From Spirosomataceae bacterium (GTDB lineage Bacteria; Bacteroidota; Bacteroidia; Cytophagales; Spirosomataceae): 32,471 bases of DNA. Below the pieces are notes generated by a model. That model was not told the DNA's origin, did no database searches, and saw nothing but the letters and a program-made list of their open reading frames with translations. Shown piece after piece: positions 2,784 to 32,471 of the stretch (its first letter is position 1; every line of letters starts with the position of its first letter). The DNA lies in NCBI GenBank assembly GCA_025455785.1, contig JALOLV010000001.1, positions 1 through 32,471 of the forward strand, given 5' to 3'. The position numbers and the translations under genes were made by a program.

Positions 2784-5700
2784 TTATTTTGGGAAGATTA
2801 TTATTCGTGCTAACTGTTTGATAGGATTTAAAAGGGATGCTTCAGCTCGTGTACCTAAAAAATTAGTTGCTTGAGATGGAAAATTAGCAAGTTGCCATTT
2901 ATTAATCTTGATTAAATCGAGAGTCATTCCTTGTATTGCAACATGCCCCTCAGTATCAAGTAAGCCTGATAGTGCTTTCTCAGAAGCCTCGGACGAAAGA
3001 CCAAGGTTATTGTGTATAACATGTCCCATTTCATGAGTCATTGTATATGCTAATAATTCTTTTGATGCAAAAGATGCCTTTGAAAAGAATATGCTTTGTT
3101 TAGAGCCACCCTTCCAAACCCTGTAATAAGTAACAGCAAGAACATCATCACCTTTAGAATTAGTAAATGAACCTCTTGAATTTACCTTATAGCTTTTTGG
3201 CATCCAATCTTTTGAGATATTAGAAACACCTTTGACATCTGAAAAATTTAAGTCTTTCATTTCTTTTAAATATTCGTTTGTATAAGGAGCTTCTTCACCA
3301 CCTTTTATTGCTGGGACTTCAGATGCAAGCAATAAATGAGGCTCTCTATATCCCGTCCAAATATTTGCCCCTAATTTATCGGCTTGCAACCCTCCTGAAA
3401 TACCGCCAAAAATACTGCCACCAATGGCACCCATTAATGCTCCTCTACCAATATTATTACCATTTAATGCTGCTCCCAAAGTTCCTGTGATAGCTCCGCT
3501 TCCTGCACCGTATGCCATACCGGGTAGAATACCTATTGGAGCATAAAACCCTAATATTCCCCCAACCGCTCCTGTGATAGCCCCCTTTCCAAAACCACCC
3601 CAGTAGCTTTTGCCCTTTCCTACGCTTAATGTGCCACTTATATGTCCACCCATGAAAGCACCGATTGCCATCGCTATTAGTACAGGGTTTCTACCATCTG
3701 GGTCAATATAACTCAGAGGGTTATTCATCATCCCGGCATACCCACTCAAAGCGTAATTATCTACTGGGTCTATGCCATCAAAACGCCCTGTGTTTGCATC
3801 GTATCCTCTCGCATGAAAATCATAAGAATTGTACCCAAAAGCATCAATGTATTCTTGGCTCTGGTAAAGCCATTGCCAAGAGCTATCCACCCCGATTCCT
3901 TCCAAAAGCGTTCCGAATGGGCTATAATGGTTTTCTTGGGCAATGTAAACAGAATCATTGAGTTTTTCAAAGATAACCCTTGTATTACCCAGATGGTCGT
4001 TGATAAAATACTGATAATGAGAACCTAATGTGTCAAATCTAATTTTGCCTTCATCGTGCAGGGCGGCTGTGAGGGTATCATTACGGTATAGTAAACTACC
4101 AACATAGTCTGTTCGGATGGTGCTACTCCCATTCACAATCTTTTGGTAGAGCTTCTGCCCATCGGCAGTATAAACGTTCTCAATGTACTTATCGGTATCA
4201 AAGAAAATATGGCTTGGTAGCCCTAAATAGTTATAACGAATACTATCTATACCTTTGTTGGCATCTGTTTTTAGGCTACCATCGGGGTAGTAAGTATAAG
4301 CCCCTACTCCACCCGTTAGAGCTTCTTTAAAGCCGATATTATCGTTGGCGGCATCGGTAAGACCTGTCAATTGGTTTTGATAGGTGGGGTATATATAACT
4401 TAAACTGTCAATCCGTTGCCAATTATTAGTAGATTCTAAGCCAAATCGGTTGAGTTTCTCTATATTACCGTTGGCATCATAAGCTACATTTTCATCATAT
4501 TTCTCATTCGTTTTACCTTTAAAAGCTGCTTTGGTGTAGCGTTGCGATTTATCATAGTCATACGTAAAGCTCCGCAAAGTAGTATCTCGGCTTGTTTTCC
4601 ATGATTGTTTACTTAGGTTTCCATCAAAATATCTACCGTCTTCAAAATAATCAAGTTTCATTGAGAATACTTTGCTACTATCCAGTTTACCCGCAGGAGT
4701 CAGGTTAATACCTCTGAGATTGCCCCTTATATTGTAGCTGTAATCAACCTTTTGTATGCCGCTACCGATAAAAGCAAGGTAGTTGGTATCGGGCAAAATG
4801 GTTGTGCCAGGTTTGAGCAAAATGTATTTTTTGGCCACATCAATCACCCGATTATTCAAGGTCTCATTTTGCCTGATGATACTGTCTTTTTGGGCTTCGT
4901 TGAGATTTTTCCTAATCATCCTCCCAATTTCGTCATATTCATAGGTTGCCAGTAGCTCGGGCGAATGACCTGTAAAATAGTGTATTGCTTGGGTTTTACG
5001 TCCTACATGGTCGTATTGATAGGTCGTTTTGCTTTCAATTTCTGAAGAATACGGAATACTGCCCGTTGGTTTGCGATACAGCGTTCGCTCTTCTAATAAC
5101 TGACCTATAAAATCAAATACAAAATCATTCTGGTTAATATCTCCAAAGCGGTTTTCGGCTTGTGATTGTATCAATCGGTTTTGGTCATCGTAGTACATGG
5201 CGGTACGTAACCATGCTTGGGTATCTAATCGCCGAACTTGATTCCCCGTTTGGAGCCCCTTCACATTGCCATATTTGACACCTCTGTAAGGTACAAAATT
5301 TAATGTATCGGCAGGTTTCCATGAGTAATCATCATAGTAGTTTACGACCATCACATCTGGTTCTATAACGGGTATAGAACTCGGGAAACTACGATTGGTA
5401 TATCCCAGTATTCCGCCTGTGGGCGTAGTTTCTTCATATTGTTTTATTAGTGTGAGTGTATCAAATGTAGCTTGTAATGTGGCTCTGGTACTGTTATTGG
5501 GTAGTATTCCTGCCAGAGCCATTCTGCCATAAGCATCGTATTTACTAAATCTCCATTGGTTATTGGTTCTGATTCTGGCATCCTGCTCTAAAACGATTTG
5601 CCCTAAACGATTATAAACTACATAGCTCCAACCTGCATCCGGTGTGTGTTTTTCGATTATTCGATTTCGTTTATCATATTTCATCATATATACACCCACC

Positions 5701-8700
5701 AAATAACTACTTGAAGCGATATTGGTATTGTCGGGTATCACTCCATACATTTTCGGAGGAATGATTAGAGCTAAACGACCTAAATAGTCGTAAACGTAAG
5801 TTGTGATTAGATAATGACTTGTTGATGTACCATCACCTGTAAATTGCACATGTTTTTCAAGGATTCTACCATCTTTGTCGCTGTAACTTATAACAGCTTG
5901 CTGTTGCTCATCAATACCTACGGTTTTTAGAATCTGATTGCCTGAATATGTATTGATATTGAGATTACCGTTATAATCTAATTCATATTTGGCAATTCCA
6001 AAATTGCCTGTTTCAAACTTTTGTTCGGTCTCTCGATTAGGTCTAAACGCTGCTCCTACGCCGATACCCTTAAATGCCCTACTTAATGGTGAGTTTTCGT
6101 ATTGTGTTACTTCGGAGTAAGGAGCTGTGTCGTTATAAAAAGTTTGAGCCAACGATTGACTACCCGATTGGAAATTCCCCGTTGCAATTGGGCTAACGAC
6201 TGGTAAAATATTCTTTTGAGGGCGACCAAAGGTATCGTATTCGGGTGTACTACTCAGCAAATCTTTAGCTTTTGGCGATGCTTTGTAGGCAACAGATTGT
6301 AATGTACGCCCGCTACCGTCACTGTAAGATACAGAAGTACTAACTTTTTGATAGTCTTGATAGACATTTCGGGTACTATCTCTTGGGCTTCTGACAACAA
6401 CCCTATTTTTTGTAGTATCAGTATTGAATGTGCCTGATGTATTGATTAGATTTTGTTTGAAATAAGGGTATTCATAGTGGGATAGAATATAACCATCCTT
6501 GTCGGTTATTTGCTTTAATTGCCCGACTTTATGTAACTCACTATCAGTATAATATTTGTAATTAATGGCTAATTTATTCGGGCTTATTTGTTTAGACAAA
6601 CCAAAAATTTTGGTTTCATATTCATATTGGGTTGTATCAATGACTACACCACCAATATTATTGATACTCCTTATAGGTAAAACCCCTGCGGTATCGTAAT
6701 CTGTACCATTAATTGAAGCCCCAAAGCCTTTTACCTTTTTTGAAAATCCTTTGTTGTTGTAGTCTTGATATTCTACGATTGGATAAAAATTGGTGTCTCG
6801 AACCAGCGAATCATCACTCACTCGATTATAGATAACATCACTAAATATTGCCTCTCCAATATTATTTAATGCGAACGACTCTTTTAGAAAGTAGCCAAAT
6901 TGGCTATTTGTGGTTACATTTAAGCTATCATAACGATTAAATGCTGCTTGTGCCACTCGTGTACCATTTTTACTGACTATTTCGATGGTAGGAGTTAATA
7001 TGTGTCGCCGTTGCATTTCATAAATGGCTCGGGCTTGTGTGCCTAATCGGGGAACATGGATAAAGTATTCGGTGGTATCACAATTATAAGGAGTACCATA
7101 CTCAGGGTCATAACAAATGCGAGGTATTAGAACTGTATCTAAACCAAAATTAAAATCTGCAATATATTTTGTTAAACTACTTAGTTGGTGGTTTTGCCCG
7201 TCACTACTCTCAATTTTTACAAGGAAATTATGTTGCCCAGGGTATGTATTGTGGTATCCTGATAATATTTCATCTTTGTATGTAAACTCTTGTATTGTTG
7301 TGATAGGGTTAGTACCATTTTGAGAAAACACTTTACTGGTTTGTTTTTCTAAGTGATACCGTTTAAATAATTGACTGTACTCTTCTAAGAAAACACCTCC
7401 ACAACAAGAAGCATAGCCCAAGTTATAACCGTTTACTTTAAAGACCTTACTTGAAAATGTATTATCAACAGAATTGCCTTGTAAGGTCGTGTACGCAAAT
7501 GTCTGAACGGATAAAGTATCCCCATTTTGATTTAATATTTCGGTTCTAATGGGGTTTCCACTCTTAAAATCATGGTAAACAATTACCCCCTCTTTTATTC
7601 TCTCAGGTTGATAGTAGTATGTCGTATCACATATCTGATTAGGATATTCTCCCGTACAATTAACAACGATTCTTTCAGTAGTTATTTCTGTTGTATCATG
7701 GTCAAACGTGTAGATAGTTTTACCTAACGTATTATCTATATTATTTTTTATTTGCTCAACCACTCTGGTATATCCCACAACTGGTCGTCCTATTTCCGCA
7801 AATAATCGGTCATAAATACCTGAATTAGCACCTATTGCTGCAAAGTTATTTTTGAAACGATAAATGGGCTTCATACTAAGAAAACCAGACGGACGGGTAT
7901 CGGGTAATACGTAGCTGTAAGACTTGATGGTTTCGATGCCAGAAATCAAATCTTTGTTTTTTATTTCTTTAATTCTCGCTCCACCAATTGGCTTATATGT
8001 ACCATTGCTATTTTTATAATTACGAGCTTCGTGTAGCTCATAAATAAACTTTGTATAACTACCAGTAGAAACGACTACACTATCTAAACTACCATAAAAT
8101 GCAAAATCTATATTTGTTTCTCTATTACTTGTATTAGGAGTACAGCCAGAAAAGAATGAGTCTCTCGGGATTAGCCCTGTTAGAAAACGATTGCCTGTTG
8201 AGCCATTTGGAAATCCCCAATGGTCTATTCCGTAGTTTAATCTACTTTTGCCATTAAATGTAGGAGAATCACCATTGTACCTAAACCGATAAGTGGTTTT
8301 ATCTGGGAAAGTTACTTTTTCTAACCGTAGTCGTTTTGTATGAGAATAGCCTACATCATCGTGAGTATATCCGCTTGGTAGGTCGTCCTCAAAGCCTGTA
8401 AAATGACCGTAGTCAAACTGGTATTTTAGAGTATCAGTGGGATTTACCTTGTCCATTACTGTCATTTCAACCAATTTTTTTGCATTAGATTGGCTGGTTG
8501 GGTTTTCATCCCAAGAATCAAGGTCTAATCTTGGAGGGGCGTTAATATAACAAATTTCGTTTCCTGATTCTGTTTCAAAACATTCTCTGAATCTTCGGTT
8601 GAACTCAACCTTTTTATGGTCTGTTGTGATACTGCCCAATGAAGCCCCCTCAACGTAAACCTTATTGATACGTTTATCTACTTGTGCTGGGGTTGGGCAT

Positions 8701-9680
8701 ACCCCAGATGATTGGCTTTCTGCTAATTTAAAAAATGAGTATTGGACTACATCGTATGTAAAGTTTATCTCTTGCCCATAAGGTGTGATGATTTTTCGTA
8801 GATACCAAGCTGATGTTACTGATTCATTTTTCCAAAAATGATTCCATCGGCTTGCACCTGGATAAATATTTTCATCTTGTGCTGTTTTGACATCTACCTC
8901 TGTACTTTTTTCATAAGCCCCATCACCAAAAACATATTTTGTTCCATCGGGCATCAAAACATCAAACCTTGTGAATTTTCCTACATCTGTTGTTCCATCA
9001 AATTCAAAAATGGGTATTATCTCAATATCTGTATCGGGGAAAAATATAAACTTTGATACTCCTGAATATTTATACATAAATTTATAGGACTGACCATTGA
9101 TATTCATGTAAAAAACATCGGGTTCTGTATCATCATCTACGGTGCTTAAACCTGTATAGCCATACCAATAATACCCTTTTCTTTCATAACTACTCGACCA
9201 CGTATTAATATCAAACTTACCCTCGTCTGGAATCCCCCTTACTTGTCGGGTAATCATACCCCCAGCCATTAAAGACCAATTCATTCCACTCCATGAAGCA
9301 ACCTCGTGTAATTTCATACCAGAGGCATTGTAATTTAAAGCAATTGGTACATTCAATGCACCTTCTTGCAAATTATAGAGTGGTAATGGAACGATGGCAG
9401 TACCAGTAAATTGATTTACTGCAATATCTTTAAAGCGATTTATGTCTGCGGCTTCTGGAGGGGCTGCTGGTGCAATTCCCGAGGGTAGGTTTCCAAAAGA
9501 AGAGATAGTAGGAATACCCAGATTTGTAGGTTTGTTAGATTCAAATTGTTTGAGTTCTTCGGGTGTAAAAGTCCGAACTGGTGGATAACCGTGATTTGCG
9601 ACCTTAACTGAGATAACTTGCTGTGCAAAAGTAATAAGGTTTACCAAGACTAAAATTAACAGTAAAATTACTTTTTTCAT
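2784..9680 (-). CDS. Large secreted RHS-repeat protein with RHS-associated core and a metallopeptidase-like C-terminal tip (MTHEMGHVIHNN)
   Basis: Signal peptide MKKVILLLILVLVNLITFAQQ; many YDxxGRxxxxxx repeats; core motif DHLGNTRV...YSPFG...GYNSYDFHARGYDANTGRFDGIDP; HExxH in the variable tip. Confidence 0.92.
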   Translation of the reverse strand: MKKVILLLILVLVNLITFAQQVISVKVANHGYPPVRTFTPEELKQFESNKPTNLGIPTISSFGNLPSGIAPAAPPEAADINRFKDIAVNQFTGTAIVPLPLYNLQEGALNVPIALNYNASGMKLHEVASWSGMNWSLMAGGMITRQVRGIPDEGKFDINTWSSSYERKGYYWYGYTGLSTVDDDTEPDVFYMNINGQSYKFMYKYSGVSKFIFFPDTDIEIIPIFEFDGTTDVGKFTRFDVLMPDGTKYVFGDGAYEKSTEVDVKTAQDENIYPGASRWNHFWKNESVTSAWYLRKIITPYGQEINFTYDVVQYSFFKLAESQSSGVCPTPAQVDKRINKVYVEGASLGSITTDHKKVEFNRRFRECFETESGNEICYINAPPRLDLDSWDENPTSQSNAKKLVEMTVMDKVNPTDTLKYQFDYGHFTGFEDDLPSGYTHDDVGYSHTKRLRLEKVTFPDKTTYRFRYNGDSPTFNGKSRLNYGIDHWGFPNGSTGNRFLTGLIPRDSFFSGCTPNTSNRETNIDFAFYGSLDSVVVSTGSYTKFIYELHEARNYKNSNGTYKPIGGARIKEIKNKDLISGIETIKSYSYVLPDTRPSGFLSMKPIYRFKNNFAAIGANSGIYDRLFAEIGRPVVGYTRVVEQIKNNIDNTLGKTIYTFDHDTTEITTERIVVNCTGEYPNQICDTTYYYQPERIKEGVIVYHDFKSGNPIRTEILNQNGDTLSVQTFAYTTLQGNSVDNTFSSKVFKVNGYNLGYASCCGGVFLEEYSQLFKRYHLEKQTSKVFSQNGTNPITTIQEFTYKDEILSGYHNTYPGQHNFLVKIESSDGQNHQLSSLTKYIADFNFGLDTVLIPRICYDPEYGTPYNCDTTEYFIHVPRLGTQARAIYEMQRRHILTPTIEIVSKNGTRVAQAAFNRYDSLNVTTNSQFGYFLKESFALNNIGEAIFSDVIYNRVSDDSLVRDTNFYPIVEYQDYNNKGFSKKVKGFGASINGTDYDTAGVLPIRSINNIGGVVIDTTQYEYETKIFGLSKQISPNKLAINYKYYTDSELHKVGQLKQITDKDGYILSHYEYPYFKQNLINTSGTFNTDTTKNRVVVRSPRDSTRNVYQDYQKVSTSVSYSDGSGRTLQSVAYKASPKAKDLLSSTPEYDTFGRPQKNILPVVSPIATGNFQSGSQSLAQTFYNDTAPYSEVTQYENSPLSRAFKGIGVGAAFRPNRETEQKFETGNFGIAKYELDYNGNLNINTYSGNQILKTVGIDEQQQAVISYSDKDGRILEKHVQFTGDGTSTSHYLITTYVYDYLGRLALIIPPKMYGVIPDNTNIASSSYLVGVYMMKYDKRNRIIEKHTPDAGWSYVVYNRLGQIVLEQDARIRTNNQWRFSKYDAYGRMALAGILPNNSTRATLQATFDTLTLIKQYEETTPTGGILGYTNRSFPSSIPVIEPDVMVVNYYDDYSWKPADTLNFVPYRGVKYGNVKGLQTGNQVRRLDTQAWLRTAMYYDDQNRLIQSQAENRFGDINQNDFVFDFIGQLLEERTLYRKPTGSIPYSSEIESKTTYQYDHVGRKTQAIHYFTGHSPELLATYEYDEIGRMIRKNLNEAQKDSIIRQNETLNNRVIDVAKKYILLKPGTTILPDTNYLAFIGSGIQKVDYSYNIRGNLRGINLTPAGKLDSSKVFSMKLDYFEDGRYFDGNLSKQSWKTSRDTTLRSFTYDYDKSQRYTKAAFKGKTNEKYDENVAYDANGNIEKLNRFGLESTNNWQRIDSLSYIYPTYQNQLTGLTDAANDNIGFKEALTGGVGAYTYYPDGSLKTDANKGIDSIRYNYLGLPSHIFFDTDKYIENVYTADGQKLYQKIVNGSSTIRTDYVGSLLYRNDTLTAALHDEGKIRFDTLGSHYQYFINDHLGNTRVIFEKLNDSVYIAQENHYSPFGTLLEGIGVDSSWQWLYQSQEYIDAFGYNSYDFHARGYDANTGRFDGIDPVDNYALSGYAGMMNNPLSYIDPDGRNPVLIAMAIGAFMGGHISGTLSVGKGKSYWGGFGKGAITGAVGGILGFYAPIGILPGMAYGAGSGAITGTLGAALNGNNIGRGALMGAIGGSIFGGISGGLQADKLGANIWTGYREPHLLLASEVPAIKGGEEAPYTNEYLKEMKDLNFSDVKGVSNISKDWMPKSYKVNSRGSFTNSKGDDVLAVTYYRVWKGGSKQSIFFSKASFASKELLAYTMTHEMGHVIHNNLGLSSEASEKALSGLLDTEGHVAIQGMTLDLIKINKWQLANFPSQATNFLGTRAEASLLNPIKQLARIIIFPK

Positions 9681-9985: not shown

Positions 9986-10648
9986 TTATATTTCGTTTTT
10001 TATAAACCTTCTTAATTCAACAGAATATACAAGTAAAATGTCATTTACTTGTTTTAATGAACTGACTAATTCTTGATAATTTGGATATAATTTTTGTATT
10101 TCTTGTGGTGTTTTATTTTTATTCTCATTATCCTCTGAATGATTGGTATACCATTTTTTAAATTTTGCTTGGTGTTCAGTTAAATGAGGTCTAAGTCCTT
10201 TATTTAGTATATCAGTAGTTAGTTCTATAAGTTTATCTGATGCTGAACTTTTTTGTAGTAACTCGCCAGAAATGTTTTTCAGTTCTTGCCTGATTACTTG
10301 AAATAATGAGTACCAAGAATTATAGACCTCAATTATTAAGTCATGGTTTTCATCGAATGGGAGTGCTGCTTTTCTCGTTATTAGCTCAACGTATATTTTA
10401 TGTGCTATTTCGAGATTTGTAAAGTTTCGCACAATATCATATTCAACTTCTCCTCCTCCCACACTGACTTTCATTTTAACAGGGATAATTTGCGAATAAT
10501 GATTGTTTTTACTTTTGACAGATTTAATTATCAGCCAAATAATCAAACCTATAACGGATAATATAAAAACAATAAATAAACTTATTTGTATTGTAAAACC
10601 CCAGGTTTCGGGGTTGAAAGAAAGGTCGATTATCTTTATATCATTCAT
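9986..10648 (-). CDS. Membrane-anchored protein (one strong N-terminal TM helix), last gene of the hypermodification/TIR operon
   Basis: TM segment ISLFIVFILSVIGLIIWLIIKS; ATG at 10648 overlaps the upstream stop. Confidence 0.7.
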   Translation of the reverse strand: MNDIKIIDLSFNPETWGFTIQISLFIVFILSVIGLIIWLIIKSVKSKNNHYSQIIPVKMKVSVGGGEVEYDIVRNFTNLEIAHKIYVELITRKAALPFDENHDLIIEVYNSWYSLFQVIRQELKNISGELLQKSSASDKLIELTTDILNKGLRPHLTEHQAKFKKWYTNHSEDNENKNKTPQEIQKLYPNYQELVSSLKQVNDILLVYSVELRRFIKNEI

Positions 10649-11270
10649 TGTAGCTATATCGTTCAAAGTTTTCGTTAAAACTTATCGGGTCGGCGTGAAT
10701 ACCCATTTCAAATTTTGAAAGCCAATCTAAAAAGCTATTAATTTCTTCAAAGTTAGTAATCGTTTTATACCCCTGACCCTTTTTTAGAAAAGATTCGTGC
10801 AACTGTTCAGGAAGTTTACGAGCAAGTCTTCCAAAATAATAAAAATTTTCTGATACTAAGACAAAGGAACTTTTAGTATCTCGTGCGATATTTACACTAT
10901 TCGGACTACCATCTTCATTACTATGATGAGAGTTTTGTTGAATCCAAATATCGTTCTCCTTGTGATAGATATTATCTCCATACATTTGGACTAAACTACC
11001 ATTAATTACGGGTTTTTTTAATTCAAATCGAGAATCTTCCCAATATTGATTATACGTTAATTTTTCATCTACCCTCATAGCATAGACTAACTTACCCTCA
11101 AAATCACCATCACTTCCTGCAATGTCTTTGCCACCTGTTCCGATAATCCAATCACCAACATTTGCATTTTGTCTTATATCTGCTTTACATGTTGCAAGTG
11201 TACATAAACCATTAAAAGGATTTGGGGCAAACCCATAATCACGAACAATGACATAAGAATATATTTTCAT
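10641..11270 (-). CDS. Nmad2-like protein (nucleotide modification associated domain 2)
   Basis: MKIYSYVIVRDYGFAPNPFNGLCTLATCKADIRQNANVGDWIIGTGG matches the characteristic N-terminus of this family as I know it; start probably ATG at 11270, not the track start 11279. Confidence 0.7.
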   Translation of the reverse strand: MKIYSYVIVRDYGFAPNPFNGLCTLATCKADIRQNANVGDWIIGTGGKDIAGSDGDFEGKLVYAMRVDEKLTYNQYWEDSRFELKKPVINGSLVQMYGDNIYHKENDIWIQQNSHHSNEDGSPNSVNIARDTKSSFVLVSENFYYFGRLARKLPEQLHESFLKKGQGYKTITNFEEINSFLDWLSKFEMGIHADPISFNENFERYSYNE

Positions 11271-11272
11271 AC

Positions 11273-11767
11273 TTAACAATTACTAACGATTCGTGTAAAA
11301 GGACTATTCCATGAAGAGTTTTCTCCATCTTCCCATTTAGGAGGTGTCCCACCGCCCTCCAATGCTTCAATTATTTTATTACCTGTCCATCCAACCATTG
11401 CATGGCCATATTTTGCAAGTTTTTCGGGAATATCAGATTGTCCAGCACCATTAATATAGACGCCTACTATACGTTTACCTTTTTTGTGAGCTTGTTCAAT
11501 CTCCCAATCAACCCATGGTCTTGTATGTGTTTCTGGACCAACTAAAACAATGACTGTACCAGACCAGTGTATTCTAAGTCGAAGCAGTCTTTTAATGTAA
11601 TCGGGGTTTGATGCTTGATTCGGCTTTGTGCTATCAATAGAGCTATTTTTAAGCTGATACCCTCTATTACGCAATAGTGTTTTTAATCGCCCTATATGTT
11701 CTTCATCTTGCCCAAAATGACTTATGAAAACATTTTTTGCTTTGCGTTTTATTTTATCTCCAACCAT
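11273..11767 (-). CDS. TIR-like protein of the ThsB/DUF1863 type
   Basis: KNVFISHFGQDEEHIGRLKTLL...YIKRLLRLRIHWSGTVIVLVGPETHTRPWVDWEIEQAHKKGKRIVGVYINGA. Confidence 0.8.
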   Translation of the reverse strand: MVGDKIKRKAKNVFISHFGQDEEHIGRLKTLLRNRGYQLKNSSIDSTKPNQASNPDYIKRLLRLRIHWSGTVIVLVGPETHTRPWVDWEIEQAHKKGKRIVGVYINGAGQSDIPEKLAKYGHAMVGWTGNKIIEALEGGGTPPKWEDGENSSWNSPFTRIVSNC

Positions 11768-11769
11768 TT

Positions 11770-12057
11770 TTAGACTTGTTTATCTTCATCAATAATAATT
11801 AACCCAATTATTGCATATCCGATAATATCTCTCAATGTATCTTCAATACTTTCAAAGTTAGGCGTCTCATTTTTAAGTGATTTTTCTACAAGGGTTTTAT
11901 ACCGACTAACTTTATCCCACAGGTGTACCATATTACCCAACATTCCTAAATCAAAACTTGCTCCCCCATAATCTTGATTTTTTTGAATTAAGATTTTTAT
12001 TATTTCATCTGTTATTAGCCTAACTTTTTCCTCTGTCATTGGATTATGTCGTTTCAT
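11770..12057 (-). CDS. Nmad1/DUF1599-like small protein
   Basis: QKNQDYGGASFDLGMLGNMVHLWDKVSRYKTLVEKS....ESIEDTLRDIIGYAIIGLIIIDED. Confidence 0.65.
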   Translation of the reverse strand: MKRHNPMTEEKVRLITDEIIKILIQKNQDYGGASFDLGMLGNMVHLWDKVSRYKTLVEKSLKNETPNFESIEDTLRDIIGYAIIGLIIIDEDKQV

Positions 12058-13057
12058 AGCTTAATTGATTTAAAATTGGATTAGCGAATTTAGGTTTTTT
12101 ATTTAGATTAAACTTATAAAAGACTTTTGCCCAATCATTTAGAAAATCATCATTAAAATAAGGCTCAGAGTCTAATAGTTTCAATCGGGTTTTTTCTTCG
12201 TATTTCTCTAATTCTTTAATTTTTTCATTAAACTCTGAAAGGTTGGAAAAGGTGGGTGTGGAATAGTCGAAATGATTATCTATTGGGTTTTTGATTTTTG
12301 CCATTTCAACAACCATTGGCTTAAAATCATCATAGAAATGGAAGTTATTAACAATATGGTAGTATTCTCCAATTGGGATGTTTAGAATATATGAGAAATA
12401 TTCTTGAATAAATGTAAAATTAAAAATATTTACCCCACTTGCCCCCCAAATGAAATCATTTGAACGCATATGAGTTATTAAATTAAGCCGATTATCTTTC
12501 GATAGAATAAATTGTAAACTAACAGTACATGGAAAATCTTTTGTGGTTTTTAAATGTCCATTCTCATCGAAACAATCTTTTGTTGGGTCTTCAATTGTAA
12601 TAATTGCTTGGCGTGTAGTTTTCTCTTTTTGAAAGCTCTTCTCTACAAAATCAAATTGGTCAATTACTCCAACTTTGTCAAGGATACTAATTCTATTTTT
12701 ATCAATTTTGTAATCATTAAGGATACCATTTCTATATCTTATTCTTGCCCCATATCCAGCCCTCATATAATCATTTTCAGCATATTCGTAAAGTTTTTTT
12801 GCATAATGCCCAATTAAAGACATATCATTCCTACCAAGCCCAATCCAGAGTGATTCAGCATAAGGTAAGCTGAACTTCCACTTCCGTGGACTTATTGTCA
12901 CTAATCGAGCTTTTGGGTTACTAATTTTTATTATTACTGGTTCTGGGAGTTCATAGCAAATATGATTTCGTACATTTCTTATTTGATAATTTGACAGCAA
13001 AAGGTCGGACATCCCTACTAAAAAAGAGTTAATTCCGTTGAATTCATAGGTTTGCAT
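12044..13057 (-). CDS. Thymidylate-synthase-like protein (TS / pyrimidine hydroxymethylase superfamily)
   Basis: Active-site-like DFPCTVSLQF and RSNDFIWGASGVNIFNFTFIQEY (compare TS PPCHxxxQF and RSxDxxxGxPFNIAxY). Confidence 0.75.
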   Translation of the reverse strand: MQTYEFNGINSFLVGMSDLLLSNYQIRNVRNHICYELPEPVIIKISNPKARLVTISPRKWKFSLPYAESLWIGLGRNDMSLIGHYAKKLYEYAENDYMRAGYGARIRYRNGILNDYKIDKNRISILDKVGVIDQFDFVEKSFQKEKTTRQAIITIEDPTKDCFDENGHLKTTKDFPCTVSLQFILSKDNRLNLITHMRSNDFIWGASGVNIFNFTFIQEYFSYILNIPIGEYYHIVNNFHFYDDFKPMVVEMAKIKNPIDNHFDYSTPTFSNLSEFNEKIKELEKYEEKTRLKLLDSEPYFNDDFLNDWAKVFYKFNLNKKPKFANPILNQLSYETT

Positions 13058-14025
13058 GGTTCTATCCTTTCATTTATTCCCCATTTGGGTGGAAAAAAGT
13101 AATTAATTTGGTTCAGATTAGGGGAATTATATTTTTGTTTAATTCTAACATTATCTACTTGCAAACTCGGTAATGCAACTCTTAGATATTTATCTGTTTC
13201 GCAAAAACAATTTTGAAGGTCTATTAGTGTTAAATCTCTTCCAAATAAGTTAGAAAAACTTGTGTAACCGAATTCTTTTTGATATTTTTCAAAATTATCC
13301 TGCGTGTACTTAATAGCATCTTCCAAGCTATTTTTTCCTAAATCTTCAAAGCACTTTTTTATGCCTCTAACAGCACCTATACCAGCCTTAACAAAAGAGT
13401 TTTCATCAAAGTTTATTACTGGAGAATAATTTAGGTCTATTGAATATTGATAAGCTAAAAAATCGCCAATAAAAGAGCAATCATTCAATATATTATAAAC
13501 TTTTTCTAATGATTTGGCTGTAATTATTTTTTTTATTTTTTCACTTTTCATAATCTCAGTTTCGACCATTTTTAACCATTTTTCGTGTTTTGAATCAAAA
13601 TGGTCATATTTTCTATGCGAGCCAGTCATCATGTAAGCATTGTTAAAAATAGGTTTATTTTTAATACGTTCAGCAAGTAATGAAGAGATTTTATCGACAT
13701 TAAAATTTGATGTATTAAGCGGTCCAATCCGATTTTCTAAATACTCCCATGTTTCTATTTTATTGAAAATTTTGAATACTAATATTCTCAGGATAATATC
13801 TTCTTCTTTCATTTTTGTACAATCAACACCGTATATTACATTACTAATTAAGTATTGACTAACCCTATCACATGCCCTATAAACATTCGTAAATTTATTA
13901 TTTGCGAGAATTTTATCTTTTGAGAATGGGTAGTTTTCACCATTACATTTTTTCCAAAAAATGTTCATTCTTTCTTGCACAAAATAGAAATAATACTTGT
14001 ATGCTTCGGGTCTAATCTTTATCAT
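13018..14025 (-). CDS. DNA-base hypermodification-type protein (HMUDK-helical / alpha-glutamyl-putrescinyl-thymine pyrophosphorylase clade)
   Basis: YFYFVQERMNIFWKKCNGENYPFSKDKILANNKFTNVYRACDRVSQYLISNVIY is the characteristic 'FTNVxRxxDRVSQ' N-terminal block of these families; 40-bp overlap with the TS-like gene. Confidence 0.7.
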   Translation of the reverse strand: MIKIRPEAYKYYFYFVQERMNIFWKKCNGENYPFSKDKILANNKFTNVYRACDRVSQYLISNVIYGVDCTKMKEEDIILRILVFKIFNKIETWEYLENRIGPLNTSNFNVDKISSLLAERIKNKPIFNNAYMMTGSHRKYDHFDSKHEKWLKMVETEIMKSEKIKKIITAKSLEKVYNILNDCSFIGDFLAYQYSIDLNYSPVINFDENSFVKAGIGAVRGIKKCFEDLGKNSLEDAIKYTQDNFEKYQKEFGYTSFSNLFGRDLTLIDLQNCFCETDKYLRVALPSLQVDNVRIKQKYNSPNLNQINYFFPPKWGINERIEPCKPMNSTELTLF

Positions 14026-14043: not shown

Positions 14044-14443
14044 GGGTATAATTAAGCATTTAGGTGTAAAGTTACAAGGTAAAAATATAATACGCTTATA
14101 ATCAGCAAGTTAAGCCTTTAAATGTCATTTTTTAATATTTCAACAAAAATGAATAATTTATACAAAAAATTTGATTGTTTGTTTTGTATAAAATAAAAGA
14201 ACGTTTGGTATAAACAGGATTTGCATAAAAATGACTTTATTTTTATGCAAAAAGTGTTTAAAAATATTCATTTTATAACTTTCTTGTAACAAATCTAAAT
14301 TTAAAACTCGTTTCTTAAAGCATTTCAGTACTCAATATCATCAAACTAAAAACAATAAAGCATCTTTTTGAATATAAACTATTGATAATAAATCAATTAC
14401 ATAGGTTTCATGTAACTTTACGCCTAAATGTTTAGGAACACCC
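14044..14443. mobile_element. MITE-like element copy A (~400 bp, TIR about 32 bp, no transposase ORF)
   Basis: Ends gggtataattaagcatttaggtgtaaagttac / gtaactttacgcctaaatgtttaggaacaccc; reverse-complement homologue of 31816-32181. Confidence 0.85.
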
Positions 14444-14990
14444 TACGTTGGTATTACGATTTAATCTCTGGTATTTCGTTGTAATACGTCTGGTGTTACG
14501 ATTTAATCGTTTGGTATTACGTGTAATATGTCGGTATTACGATTTAATACGTCGGTATTACGCTGTATTACGTCTGGTATTACGTCGGTATTACGATTTA
14601 ATACATCGGTATTACGATTTAATACGTCTGATATTACGATTTAATCTCTGGTATTACGCTGTAATATGTCGGTATTACGATTTAATACGTCGGTATTACG
14701 ATTTAATACGTCGGTATTACGCTGTATTACGTCTGGTATTACGCTGTAATACGTCGGTATTACGCTGTAATACGTCGGTATTACGATTTAATACGTCGGT
14801 ATTACGCTGTATTACGTCTGGTATTACGCTGTATTACGTCTGGTATTACGCTGTAATACGTCGGTATTACGATTTAATACATCGGTATTACGCTGTAATA
14901 CGTCGGTATTACGTTTGGTATTACGTCGGTATTACGCTGTATTACGTCTGGTATTACGTTGTATTACATCGGTATTAGACGGTATTATGC
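14444..14990. repeat. Tandem array of about 28 GGTATTACG-headed units, mostly 21-22 bp (e.g. GGTATTACGCTGTAATACGTC, GGTATTACGATTTAATACGTC, GGTATTACGCTGTATTACGTCT) with some 10-12 bp half-units
   Basis: Manual parsing of every unit; GTATTAC-GCT-GTAATAC dyads. Confidence 0.95.
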
Positions 14991-15583
14991 TTTTTTAAGT
15001 AATTATATACTGTCCCATAGGCTACACCTGCACGAATACTTATCTGGTTCATTGATAATCCTTGTTTTTGTAATTCAAGGATTTCGTTGAGTTTATGTAT
15101 AGGTAGCTTCGGTCTCGAAATATTCTTACCTTGTACTTTGGCTCTTTGCATTCCTGCCTTTACTCGCTGACTTATCAACGAACTCTCAAATTGTGCCAAA
15201 GAAGCCATGACATGAAAAATCAATTCACCCGTTGGGGTTGTGGTGTCAATGTTTTCTTGGTAAGAAATGAAATCTACTCCCAAAGTCTGAAACTCTTTCA
15301 GGGCATTGACCAATGCTTGAGTCGAACGGGCAAATCGGTCGTATCGCCATACTAACACAACATCCAGTTTGCGTTTTTTGGCAGCATCCATCATCTGTTT
15401 GTATTGGGTTCGTTCTTGGGTAGTCCCCGAGGCATAATCTACGTACTCTCCCACAATTTCAAAGTTTCGCCTTTGGGCATATTCTCTCAATTGTAAAAGT
15501 TGGGTTTCGGGGTCTTGTGTTTTGTCGGTAGTAGATACCCTTGCATAGAGGGCAACACGATAATTTTTTGGGGTTTGATACAT
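14975..15583 (-). CDS. Small serine recombinase (resolvase/invertase type) with C-terminal HTH
   Basis: VALYARVSTTDKTQDPETQLLQLREYA; VWRYDRFARSTQALVNAL; GELIFHVMASLAQFESSLISQRVKAGMQRAK; ATG at 15583 preferred over TTG at 15598. Confidence 0.95.
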   Translation of the reverse strand: MYQTPKNYRVALYARVSTTDKTQDPETQLLQLREYAQRRNFEIVGEYVDYASGTTQERTQYKQMMDAAKKRKLDVVLVWRYDRFARSTQALVNALKEFQTLGVDFISYQENIDTTTPTGELIFHVMASLAQFESSLISQRVKAGMQRAKVQGKNISRPKLPIHKLNEILELQKQGLSMNQISIRAGVAYGTVYNYLKKHNTV

Positions 15584-15597
15584 GATAATAATTATCA
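15583..15597. promoter_or_regulatory. TGATAAT-A-ATTATCA dyad overlapping the recombinase start codon; possible autoregulatory/recombination site
   Basis: Perfect 7-bp arms with 1-nt centre. Confidence 0.4.
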
Positions 15598-15925
15598 AAA
15601 AGGATTTCCTTTACAAAGTTCCTTTTTAATCTCGTAAACACCTCATTTTCAAGTATATTTTTTACCGAAATTTTGACACCCATTTTGATAAGTGCTTTCG
15701 ACAGATTTGACTCACTGATTTTTAAAAATATAATTTGGCAATATTATTATTAGCCAATATAATTACTTATAAAAACTCTTAATTAATGATAACAAATTCT
15801 TAACATTGGATTTGGTGCAAAAAAAAATATTTAATCTATCTTTAGATAAAAAAATAAAACCCAAAAGCCAACATAAAAATTAAAAGTCCGACAACCTAAC
15901 AAATCAGTTTTAAATCGGATGAAAC

Positions 15926-25382: not shown

Positions 25383-25751
25383 TTAGTCGTATGTGTTAGG
25401 TTGATTCGTTTTAGCAAAAATAGAATATTTATAGGACTATAAAGTATAAATTTTATAAAGTTATTGCTTACCCTCAGTTTATATGTGTTTAATAATTATA
25501 TCACAAAAAGCTGAAAGTAATATTTAGCTATGAATCTATCTGTAAACTGCCGCCCCGCCCCCCCCTCTTTTATATTATAAAACTTGATTTTTCCTCCTTA
25601 TTTTTTTGATTGATTTCGTGGAAAACCTGTGTACAATTCCTAAAAGAAATAAAAAAAAGTATAGCATCAATAATTTGAGTTATTTATCAATATTATATTT
25701 GATTGATTTAGGGTGGGTGTAAATAATTGATAATAAGTATTTTATGAGTTG

Positions 25752-26338
25752 AAAAAGGAGGTTTGGAATAGGTAAAACGGAGATTTGGAATAATTTAAGA
25801 GGTTTTAAAAAAGAGATTTGGAATAAATAAAACGGAGATTTGGAATAATTTGGGAGGCTACAAAACGGAGTTTAATTTTGTTTTCTCCGTTTTTGTTGAT
25901 AAATTGCTTTTGCATTACAATTCTAACAAAAATACTAAAAAATTACTGTATTAACTATTGTATAATCTTGACAAAAACGGAGGTTTGGAATGTATGTGCA
26001 AAAATACTGGTTTTTGGGGGGCTTTCGGTTGTGATTCGGTTCTATTTCAGCTCAATTTCGAGTAAAAAGCTCAACTATTAAAACTGAAAACGGAGGTTTA
26101 GAATAAATAATTTTCAAAATAGTAATTAAAAAAACAAATTTATTTTATTCGCTATTAATATATTTATTATATGTATAGCGTTGCAATTTAAAGATTTACC
26201 TTTAAAAACGGAGGTTTGGAATAAGTAATTGAAAAATACTGACTTTTTGGGGTTTTCGGTTGTAATTCGGCTGTCTTTCGTTTCTATTTCGTGTGAAAGA
26301 CGCAAAAGTAAAACCGCAAAACGGAGATTTAGAATAGA
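25752..26338. repeat. Origin iterons: about nine copies of AAAACGGAG(G/A)TTTGGAATA (some degenerate)
   Basis: Copies near 25752, 25774, 25806, 25828, 25862 (partial), 25972, 26086, 26204, 26318, immediately upstream of rep. Confidence 0.9.
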
Positions 26339-26374: not shown

Positions 26375-27361
26375 ATGAGTGATTTGAATCAAAGTGTAAT
26401 TAGTTTTAGCAGAAAATCTGATAATTACCAACCTAACCCAATAACAGAAAGCCGACAAGAATTTAGTGAAATCGAGAAAAAAATTGTTGTTTATGTTATT
26501 AATCAGTTAGGACAAGTTGCTAAAGATTGGAAAGGGCAAAATATTAGCTTCCCGATTCCTTTTACCGAGCTAACAGGTACTAATCATGCCAAAATAAAGA
26601 AAACGGCAGAGTCTATCATAACTAAGAGGATAACATTACTTGATAAGGTGTCTTCATCTGATAATGAAACTTACTATCATCTAATAATCCCGTTTACTGA
26701 GGTTTTATTGAGAAAAATCAATGGGAAGGACTACCTACAAGTTGTGATGAATAGTTCCGTTGTCCCTTTTTTTATTGAGCTGGGCAAGCATTTTACAAAA
26801 TACAGTTTAGATATAATGCTTTCGCTTGGTTCAATATATGCTCAACGTATGTACGAAATTATTATGTTACATGTAGGACGCAAACAACGTAAGTTTAATT
26901 ACACCGTTGAGAAATTAAAATTTATGTTTAACTGCCCCGAGAGTTATACTTACAATGAGGTTAGAAGATGGGCTTTAGACGTAGCACAAAAAGAACTAAG
27001 AGAGAAAGCCAATATTATTTTTACATACGAGCCTTCTAAGAAAGAAGGAAAAAGAATAGTTGAGTTACAGTTTTATGTAAAAACAGAATTAGAGATTTCG
27101 CTCGAAGCAATTGCAAATGAAGCAGAGCAATTTGAAAGAGGAACCCCTATACAACAAAGAGATTGTATTATGAGGCTCCTGAATAATTACTCATTCACGA
27201 GAGAGCAACAAACGATAATAATGGGGGATAAAGAAAAATGGGCAATTTTTTTAAAGATTGATAGTGAAATTTATAATGGAGTTAGAAAAGATATAGATAA
27301 CCCAACTGCTTATATTGCTAAAAGCCTTGGCTTTAATGTCAGTGCTAAGAAGAAAAGATAA
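26375..27361 (+). CDS. Plasmid replication initiator, Rep_3 superfamily
   Basis: Winged-helix Rep pattern: ...ITKRITLLDK...YSLDIMLSLGSIYAQRMYEIIMLHVGRKQRKFNYTVEKLKFMFNCPESYTYNEVRRWALDVAQKELREKANIIFTYEP; adjacent to iterons. Confidence 0.92.
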   Translation: MSDLNQSVISFSRKSDNYQPNPITESRQEFSEIEKKIVVYVINQLGQVAKDWKGQNISFPIPFTELTGTNHAKIKKTAESIITKRITLLDKVSSSDNETYYHLIIPFTEVLLRKINGKDYLQVVMNSSVVPFFIELGKHFTKYSLDIMLSLGSIYAQRMYEIIMLHVGRKQRKFNYTVEKLKFMFNCPESYTYNEVRRWALDVAQKELREKANIIFTYEPSKKEGKRIVELQFYVKTELEISLEAIANEAEQFERGTPIQQRDCIMRLLNNYSFTREQQTIIMGDKEKWAIFLKIDSEIYNGVRKDIDNPTAYIAKSLGFNVSAKKKR

Positions 27362-27423: not shown

Positions 27424-28368
27424 ATGATTTCAGCAGAAAAAATTATAAAATTTCTCCGACAAAAACCAGCTTTAAACCTTTCTCAAATTGAAAAGGAATC
27501 GGGCTTACCATCCAGAACACTGCATAAAGCATTTAGTGGCTCGTTAAAACTGAATGAAAAACACTGCCAGTTGATAGAACCAGTTTTACGAAATTACGGA
27601 TATGCAGACGAGCTTTTTTCAAAAGCCAAAATTATATCAATCGTCAACCACAAGGGGGGAGTCGGTAAAACCACTACTACTATAAATCTTGGTAAAGCAT
27701 TAGTAATTTCAGGTTTTAGAGTCTTATTGGTTGATTTTGATTCACAAGGAAATACTTCACAGTGTTGTGGCGTACACCAAGTAGATGTTCAAGTGATTGA
27801 TGCTTTACTTGAAAAAGTAGATTTGCCAATTATACCACTCGATGAGAATTTATTTCTTGCTCCGTCAAATATTAAAATGGCTTATCGAGAACTTGAATTG
27901 ATAAATTCGATAGGGAACGAAAAACGACTTAAAAATAGACTTCAAAAAATATCAGAAGAGTTTGATTTTATCATCATTGATTGTCCTCCAGCCCTAAATA
28001 TTTTTACAACTAATGCGTTAGTTGCATCTGATTTGTGTATAATCCCTCTACAGCCAGAAGCATCAGCTCTTTATGGGGTAGATAGCTTATTCAACCGTAT
28101 TTACGAGGTAAGAGAGGAATCTAACCCTTCATTAATTGTAAAAGGAATTCTTTTTACGATGGTAACAGAAAATACCTTGGTACATAAACAGATGATTGAT
28201 TATGTAAAGAAAGAATATAAACATATACCAATTTTTAATGTATTGATTGAACGTGCTACAATTATTCAACAATCGCAGGTAGCTCAAAAAGATATTTTTA
28301 CATATTCACCAAAGTCGCCTGTTGCACTACAATATGCTGAATTGGCAAAAGAGTTTTTCATAATCTAA
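27424..28368 (+). CDS. parA: ParA-type partition ATPase with N-terminal HTH
   Basis: IISIVNHKGGVGKTTTTINLGKAL, VLLVDFDSQGNTSQ, FIIIDCPPALNIFT. Confidence 0.95.
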   Translation: MISAEKIIKFLRQKPALNLSQIEKESGLPSRTLHKAFSGSLKLNEKHCQLIEPVLRNYGYADELFSKAKIISIVNHKGGVGKTTTTINLGKALVISGFRVLLVDFDSQGNTSQCCGVHQVDVQVIDALLEKVDLPIIPLDENLFLAPSNIKMAYRELELINSIGNEKRLKNRLQKISEEFDFIIIDCPPALNIFTTNALVASDLCIIPLQPEASALYGVDSLFNRIYEVREESNPSLIVKGILFTMVTENTLVHKQMIDYVKKEYKHIPIFNVLIERATIIQQSQVAQKDIFTYSPKSPVALQYAELAKEFFII

Positions 28369-28382
28369 TTTAACTTGATAAG

Positions 28383-29339
28383 ATGGCAAAAAACTTTATG
28401 GCTGCAATGGTAACTACCAAATCTTCGACACCACCAGCCTTGTATTCTCAAACAGAAAAAATAAAAAAAGAGATTAGTATTTTAGACAATCTCAAGAAAT
28501 TTATTCCACCATTATCCGCCGAAGAACGTCAGCAGTTAGAACAGAATATTTTAGAATTTGGGTGTAAGGACTCGCTCACAATATGGGAAACCACAGAGGG
28601 GGTTATCTCTTCAGATTCTAAAACTCCAGATTTACCAAAATATATTTTAATAGATGGTCATAACAGATATGAAATCTGCCAGAAATATGGTATCGATTTT
28701 AAAATTCTAATTGTTGAGTTTGAAAATCTCGATAAGGTTTATGACTTTATGATAGACCATCAATTAGGAAGACGCAATTTATCGCCCGAGCAGATGTCAT
28801 ATTTGAGGGGTTTGAAGTATAATTCTTTGAAAAAAAATGAAGTTCAAAGAGATAGTAGTGGTAAGTTTTTATCGGATGAGAAGCCGAGTGGTCAAAGTGA
28901 CCAGACGGCAATTTTAAGTGAGGTAAATCAAGAAAATTTACCGAGTGGTCAAAATGACCAGGCGGCGAAAAAACAGACGCTATCAGAGCAATTAGCTGAA
29001 CAGTTTAATGTTGGAGAAAAGACGATTCGACGAGATGCTGCGTTTGCAAAAGGTCTTGAGATGTTACCGTCGGAGATTAAGAGTCAAGTTTTACAAGGAA
29101 AATCAATTCTGAATAAAGCTCAGATAATAGAGCTTAGTAAACTCAAAGATAAAAATGAGATTGAACTATTTATCAATAGACAGTCTAAAGAAAATGATTC
29201 TATTGTAGTTCAAACCGAAGATGATAATTTAAAAAAAGAAAAAGAACGTATTTCTATTCTCGTAAAATCTATTTCCAAACCCAAAGACTGCGATTTCTTA
29301 ATAAAAGAGTTAAGAGAACTAAAGAATAAAATGAACTAA
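28383..29339 (+). CDS. parB: ParB-like partition protein
   Basis: ParB-like KFIPPLSAEERQQLEQNILEFGCKDSLTIWE....YILIDGHNRYEICQKYG plus HTH; immediately downstream of parA. Confidence 0.88.
   Translation: MAKNFMAAMVTTKSSTPPALYSQTEKIKKEISILDNLKKFIPPLSAEERQQLEQNILEFGCKDSLTIWETTEGVISSDSKTPDLPKYILIDGHNRYEICQKYGIDFKILIVEFENLDKVYDFMIDHQLGRRNLSPEQMSYLRGLKYNSLKKNEVQRDSSGKFLSDEKPSGQSDQTAILSEVNQENLPSGQNDQAAKKQTLSEQLAEQFNVGEKTIRRDAAFAKGLEMLPSEIKSQVLQGKSILNKAQIIELSKLKDKNEIELFINRQSKENDSIVVQTEDDNLKKEKERISILVKSISKPKDCDFLIKELRELKNKMN
28889..28960. repeat. Two TGGTCA-NNN-TGACCA dyads (28889-28903 and 28946-28960) inside parB
   Basis: CCGAGTGGTCAAAGTGACCAGACGGC and CCGAGTGGTCAAAATGACCAGGCGGC, 57 bp apart (19 codons). 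Confidence 0.85.
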
Positions 29340-29394
29340 TATGGGTATTATATCGTTATTAATACGTTTTAATATTGAAATAAAATACATAACC

Positions 29395-29811: not shown

Positions 29812-29863
29812 GGGACAATTAAACATTTAGGTGTAAGTTACGCCTAAATGTTTAGGAACACCC
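29812..29863. mobile_element. MITE-like remnant copy C: the two TIRs fused with interior lost
   Basis: gggacaattaaacatttaggtgtaagttacgcctaaatgtttaggaacaccc. Confidence 0.8.
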
Positions 29864-31815: not shown

Positions 31816-32181
31816 GGGTGTTCCTAAACATTTAGGCGTAAAGTTACATAAAACCTATGTAATTGATTTATTATCAATAGTTTATATTCAAAAAGATGCT
31901 TTAAAAAACGAGTTTTAAATTTAGATTTGTTACAAGAAAGTTATAAAATGAAAATTTTTAAACACTTTTTGAATAAAAATAAAGTCATTTTTATATGCAA
32001 ATCCATCCTGTTTATACCAAACGTTCTTTTATTTTATACAAAACAAACAACCAAATTATTTGTATAAATTATTCATTTTTGTTGAAATATTAAAAAATGA
32101 CTTTTAATGGCTTAACTTGTTGATTATAAGCATACTATGCCCTTACAATGTAGTTTTACGCCTAAATGTTTAATTGTACCC
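31816..32181. mobile_element. MITE-like element copy B (366 bp), inverted relative to copy A, flanked by ATCT target-site duplication (31812-31815, 32182-32185)
   Basis: Ends gggtgttcctaaacatttaggcgtaaagttac / gtagttttacgcctaaatgtttaattgtaccc. Confidence 0.85.
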
Positions 32182-32372: not shown

Positions 32373-32471
32373 AAGTCATTCAAAAGAATAAAGGGTCTCT
32401 TTTAATTCGTTCATAATAAAAGCCTGTTTTCCTTAAAGGTTTTTCAATATCACTATGAAGATAAGAGGTAA
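32373..32471. repeat. Terminal direct repeat, second copy
   Basis: Same 99 bases as 1-99. Confidence 0.95.

Follow-up and report, generated by a model that had tools for sequence, protein, structure and literature searches.

A phased GTATTAC array on a Spirosomataceae plasmid: a possible binding cluster for a ribbon-helix-helix protein supplied in trans

What is the role of half a kilobase of helically phased GTATTAC/GTAATAC motifs next to the gene of a small serine resolvase? The motifs lie in contig JALOLV010000001.1 of a Spirosomataceae bacterium (assembly GCA_025455785.1), analyzed here over a window of 32,471 nucleotides, i.e., the whole stretch. The identity of window bases 1-99 and 32373-32471 shows that the window represents one complete circular plasmid, 32,372 bp in size. 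The GC content of the plasmid (0.34) is lower than that of the sampled contigs (0.35-0.41). Besides the resolvase, it encodes a Rep3-type replication initiator, which has eight iterons, together with ParA and a ParB-like protein; also present are an RHS protein and two operons, one for type I restriction-modification and one of the nucleotide-modification/TIR kind. The RHS-core protein counts 2298 aa (2784-9680), and a second ORF (1150-2094), which repeats its C-terminal junction motif SGYAGMMNNPLSYIDPDGRNP, looks like a displaced alternative RHS tip.

A 530-bp array was confirmed at 14444-14977 (plus strand), the limits called by TRF; a first-pass annotation had reported ~540 bp at 14444-14990, where the array is indeed present. 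TRF gave a 42-bp period repeated 12.8 times (score 629), and also periods of 21 and 85 bp. The exact sequence GTATTACG occurs 28 times, every copy within the array, against 0.82 expected from shuffles (sd 0.88). The array can be described as 28 heads, GGTATTACG, most of which are joined to one of the second halves TTAATACGTC, GTAATACGTC and GTATTACGTCT. Thirteen units are 21 bp long, seven 22 bp and three 20 bp, the 21/22-bp units being of three main types, and five half-units measure 10-12 bp; the recurrence every 21-22 bp with occasional half-units, as first described, is thus borne out by the unit list. The earlier count of ~28 dyads holds for the heads, but perfect GTATTACGCTGTAATAC dyads (7-3-7) are only four.

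Based on a 6-bp core, 43 half-sites were counted in the array, with convergent pairs 10 bp apart at 11 places. Divergent half-sites are separated by 11 bp and direct ones by 10, 11 or 12 bp, and a few degenerate places show gaps of 20-33 bp. The periodicity fits best at 10.6-10.7 bp, with R = 0.80 compared to 0.41 at 10.5. The GGTATTACG half of the unit is less variable: in a hand count, it received 3 of 17 changes while making up 9 of 21 positions (binomial P = 0.028). The longest exact repeat inside the array, 66 bp, is shorter than the 99-bp end overlap, a length that suggests the assembler's k; hence, a collapse of the array is unlikely, and the assembled length is probably correct.

On the left, a MITE-like element (14044-14443) abuts the array, which begins at the next base, so this border stands as first proposed. 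An 83% identical copy of the element is located at 31816-32181 and a mini-copy near 29815-29863. Neither is accompanied by an array, and within the host bin, the family is confined to the plasmid contig. The left array edge is degenerate, and a higher-order periodicity of 85 bp is superimposed on the units. On the right, the resolvase stop codon had been taken as the border; it falls within the array (14975-14977), the last resolvase codons (HNTV*) being array-like sequence. A degenerate final half-unit, GGTATTATGCTT (14978-14992, plus strand), runs on into the 3' end of the resolvase gene.

Several general explanations can be set aside. The units are contiguous, without the unique spacers of a CRISPR array, and have no Rfam match, so that the early remark that this is not CRISPR was reasonable. 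A 176-aa open frame crosses the array, a length matched by 2% of unit shuffles, but the 21-/22-bp units shift the frame along it and give no convincing coding reading. A hairpin RNA or single-stranded DNA structure is not indicated either: the DNA fold has z = -1.1, Rfam gave no match, and the minus-strand RNA fold (z = -2.4) is modest and expected from the dyads.

No homologous array was identified in the plasmid's own genome, 59 relatives or 222 family genomes, nor in a pattern scan of 85k GTDB species genomes and IMG/VR, nor among PLSDB plasmids. A phage search with the array returned weak matches only, and a weak match in one genome (G312) resembles a coding repeat. The heptamer arrays recovered by the species-contig pattern scan (22-bp sets in Prevotella, (GTATTAC)n in Chloroflexi, and others) are unrelated outside the heptamer. 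In the ruminant Prevotella MAGs RGIG1062 and RGIG1544 (L018-L056), 22-bp repeats, GTATTACGACTGAAGGGCCTTC, form many scattered sets of about three, which look intergenic. On the plasmid itself, no significant motif copy was found outside the array; a plus-strand GGTATTA...TTAATACG just past parB, at 29344, comprises two half-sites only and lies outside the scoring matches.

The exact dyad has five matches outside the window in the 222 family genomes: two in TonB-receptor-like coding sequence (GTATTACGTGGTAATAC), one apparently coding, one short intergenic and one upstream of the gene of a 189-aa protein. The TonB-receptor-like matches and the other single dyads are not arrays. The last match is located in a promoter region, and the 189-aa protein encoded there resembles, only weakly by profile, the NikA-, Arc- and CopG-like families. 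Its N-terminus, SQxINxRTT...MSEYIL, has in our reading a ribbon-helix-helix (RHH) look; on these weak profile matches, the protein family is putatively assigned to the RHH DNA-binding proteins.

Homologues of this protein are present in nine family genomes (29-54% identity). Most have GTATTAC, GTAATAC, GTTTTAC or GTAAAAC upstream of the gene and, in most cases, downstream too. Around 10 RHH loci, 65 half-sites were counted in 12.7 kb, compared to 5.8 expected in Markov sequence (maximum 13 in 200 runs), an enrichment that is visible locus by locus; their spacings peak at 10, 20, 22 and 30 bp. Furthermore, a phased query of three half-sites at a 10-bp pitch, with one mismatch allowed, matched five loci in 101 family genomes, four of them at RHH genes, while the reversed control matched none. 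At most of these genes, a second gene is conserved, encoding a protein with one hydrophobic segment (DPFG...GWLIYE), i.e., a single-membrane-span protein; examples of the pair are found at L205 (8644-9613), L206 (8226-9174) and L213 (8823-9807). Tyrosine integrases, a VapE-like protein, a DUF6371 protein and restriction-modification genes are neighbors of these loci, and the units therefore apparently reside on mobile elements. No name was found for the pair. The array has thus led to a conserved, apparently unnamed unit of an RHH and a membrane protein, with phased putative binding sites, in the same bacterial family.

The array shares with the RHH loci the GTATTAC/GTAATAC half-sites, the pitch of about 10 bp and the use of both orientations. 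The heptamer served as the search query and is hence not independent; the pitch, the clustering and the family-wide recurrence are. Given the shared heptamer, the mixed orientation and the turn-length pitch, the array is somewhat more probably than otherwise an amplified binding cluster for an RHH protein of this family carried by mobile elements, acting in trans. Half-sites in either orientation, 10-11 bp apart, would face one side of the helix, and cooperative binding of an RHH protein, supplied by another element in the cell, would cover the array. Tandem duplication would have extended a few sites to the ~43 half-sites of today. As the RHH gene is paired with that of a conserved single-membrane-span protein, the likely consequence would be that the RHH protein is sequestered or that the coated array serves for anchoring, as a platform. 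The first-pass suggestion of a nucleoprotein platform is reasonable. Binding or crossover sites of the recombinase are not supported, the GTATTAC grammar recurring around RHH genes instead.

Other observations count against the RHH reading. No RHH homologue was found on the plasmid or in the 66%-complete host genome, the array is not accompanied in the window by the adjacent gene pair seen elsewhere, and a search of the PLSDB plasmids with one family member as the query found none. Moreover, the RHH loci also use GTTTTAC/GTAAAAC, and the 11-/12-bp gaps and linker bases of the array are not shared with them. Since no counterpart of the array was found in other genomes or plasmids, it cannot be shown that selection acts on the array as a unit. 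We infer binding and supply in trans, and a function that may be titration, anchoring or partition, or none. Should the array bind an RHH protein in trans, the plasmid would carry an operator or centromere array for the protein of another element, a testable case of hitch-hiking or titration between mobile elements.

Iterated half-sites at a 10-11-bp spacing are known from RHH operators of the Arc/CopG type and from RHH centromeres such as R1 parC, to which ParR binds. The array resembles them in its short half-sites at a one-turn pitch and in the RHH family tied to the motif in related genomes, but it is very long (43 half-sites) and its plasmid has no RHH gene. In contrast to R1, the RHH family associated with the array is paired with a single-membrane-span protein and not with the ParM actin. 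In plasmid pSM19035, parS is bound by ParB (omega), also an RHH-type protein. This parS consists of contiguous 7-bp heptads in mixed orientation (PMC9499535). The array likewise contains 7-bp elements in both orientations, but spaced to 10-12 bp.

A more specific version of this idea, to which we give only a small probability, is that the array is centromere-like, or a decoy, for a partition-like or anchoring system of another mobile element composed of the RHH protein, the membrane protein and phased GTATTAC sites. If true, this would be an undescribed DNA-tethering system, on which the plasmid hitch-hikes or which it disarms by titration.

The main rival to RHH binding is a minisatellite without current function, a short intergenic repeat beside a MITE grown by slippage and unequal recombination, its period and dyads having no partner. 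This is a real possibility, although we consider it the less probable explanation; it retains considerable weight, the array being confined to one plasmid. The lack of a homologous array in all the collections searched, the 85-bp higher-order periodicity with the degenerate left edge, and the lack of a conserved partner on the plasmid all fit such an origin. On the contrary, the half-site, its two orientations and the 10-bp pitch match an independent conserved cis-element, and one half-site varies less. Among the closest described cases is BrickBuilt of Porphyromonas gingivalis, a minisatellite/MITE with 23-nt spacerless units in up to ~23 copies at 19 dispersed loci (PMC4596501). Both occur in Bacteroidota and have intergenic spacerless tandem units associated with a MITE, and in both, most of the variation falls within one unit half. 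However, the BrickBuilt repeats lie within the MITE, between leader and tail, at 19 loci, while the array abuts its MITE at a single locus. The array does not follow the BrickBuilt layout, as it starts one base after the MITE end and the two other MITE copies are array-free.

It is rather unlikely that the array serves as a regulatory platform (operator/UAS) for the nucleotide-modification/TIR operon, which is encoded on the minus strand and begins 0.4 kb downstream of the array. This operon (9986-14025, minus strand) has six genes, encoding a protein with a 5-hmdU kinase-like helical domain, a thymidylate synthase-like protein, an Nmad1-like protein, a ThsB-type TIR protein, Nmad2 and a protein without a Pfam match. 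It is a candidate nucleotide-modification defence system, in which the TIR alone matched PADLOC models. The array and the MITE immediately precede the operon, which begins at 14025 and shares its strand with the resolvase; no terminator-like site lies in between. However, operon homologues in seven genomes are without such an array, and the motif has no significant copy elsewhere on the plasmid. The proposal that the array is an insertion hotspot for the defence operon finds no support for the same reason, homologous operons occurring without it.

The centromere of the plasmid's own ParAB, or a set of additional Rep iterons, is a still less probable identity. The architecture of the array is like that of the F plasmid sopC (parS F), in which a 43-bp unit containing 16-bp inverted repeats occurs twelve times in tandem (PMC6238139): the array is also a plasmid tandem array, with a double unit of ~42 bp and 7-bp inverted arms. 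Moreover, beside parB, one replicon of a relative (G036:C9; L184, 13176-13834) has a 79-bp tandem array made up of nine parS-like dyads. Unlike sopC, the array is away from parAB. ParA (27424-28368, plus strand) was assigned by Pfam, and the ParB-like protein (28383-29339, plus strand) by homologues beside ParA on Cytophagales plasmids. The putative parS, GTGGTCAAARTGACCAG, differs from GTATTAC, and its two copies, GTGGTCAAAGTGACCAG (28888-28904) and GTGGTCAAAATGACCAG (28945-28961), are both inside parB. This follows the family pattern, as 15 of the 30 loci with ParB homologues in the order have the GNCANNNTGNC dyad within or close to parB, compared to 3 of 92 control windows.

The motif mismatch extends to the iterons. 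The Rep3-type initiator (26375-27361, plus strand; Pfam) is preceded by eight iterons, AAAACGGAGRTTTGGAAT (25751-26335, plus strand), that differ in sequence and location from the array. Rep iterons of Cytophagales plasmids are helically spaced 21-22-bp tandem repeats as well, in ~3-8 copies, in the same order of bacteria, but they are located upstream of rep; among the sister plasmids examined, arrays of this kind are rep-proximal, apart from short ones in pSP2_2.

The neighboring gene (14975-15598, minus strand, ATG probably at 15583) encodes a small serine resolvase with Resolvase and HTH_7 domains (Pfam), its C-terminus having been compared with orthologues. Of 390 order genomes, 17, the plasmid's own included, have loci encoding resolvases 49-85% identical, mostly 70-85%, as do plasmids and viral contigs. 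Most of these loci, several of which are redundant copies, have in common TTATCAAAAAGG and CCTTTTTGATAA, two boxes that precede the gene and whose starts are 84-88 bp apart. In the window, they correspond to a proximal box, TTATCAAAAAGGATTTCCTTTACAAAG in plus-strand reading (15592-15618, minus strand), and a distal box, GACACCCATTTTGATAA in plus-strand reading (15675-15691, minus strand). They are likely the res site of the resolvase and are unrelated in sequence to GTATTAC. The first-pass inference that the array consists of binding or crossover sites of this recombinase had only adjacency in its favor and is now highly improbable, given this conserved, unrelated res site and the ~25 orthologous loci that, at 70-85% identity and apart from the window itself, are all array-free.

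The resolvase is hence regarded as a neighbor of the array, outside its proposed function. Judged by motif, the array is none of the three standard elements, res, parS and iterons. This negative result separates the array from the recombinase and yields candidate res, parS and iteron sites for the complete plasmid. On the Runella plasmid pSP2_2 (L100, 42770-42821 and 43093-43144), short arrays of GTAATAC/GTAATGATAC, phased at 10-11 bp and of few copies, are located downstream of a more distant resolvase.
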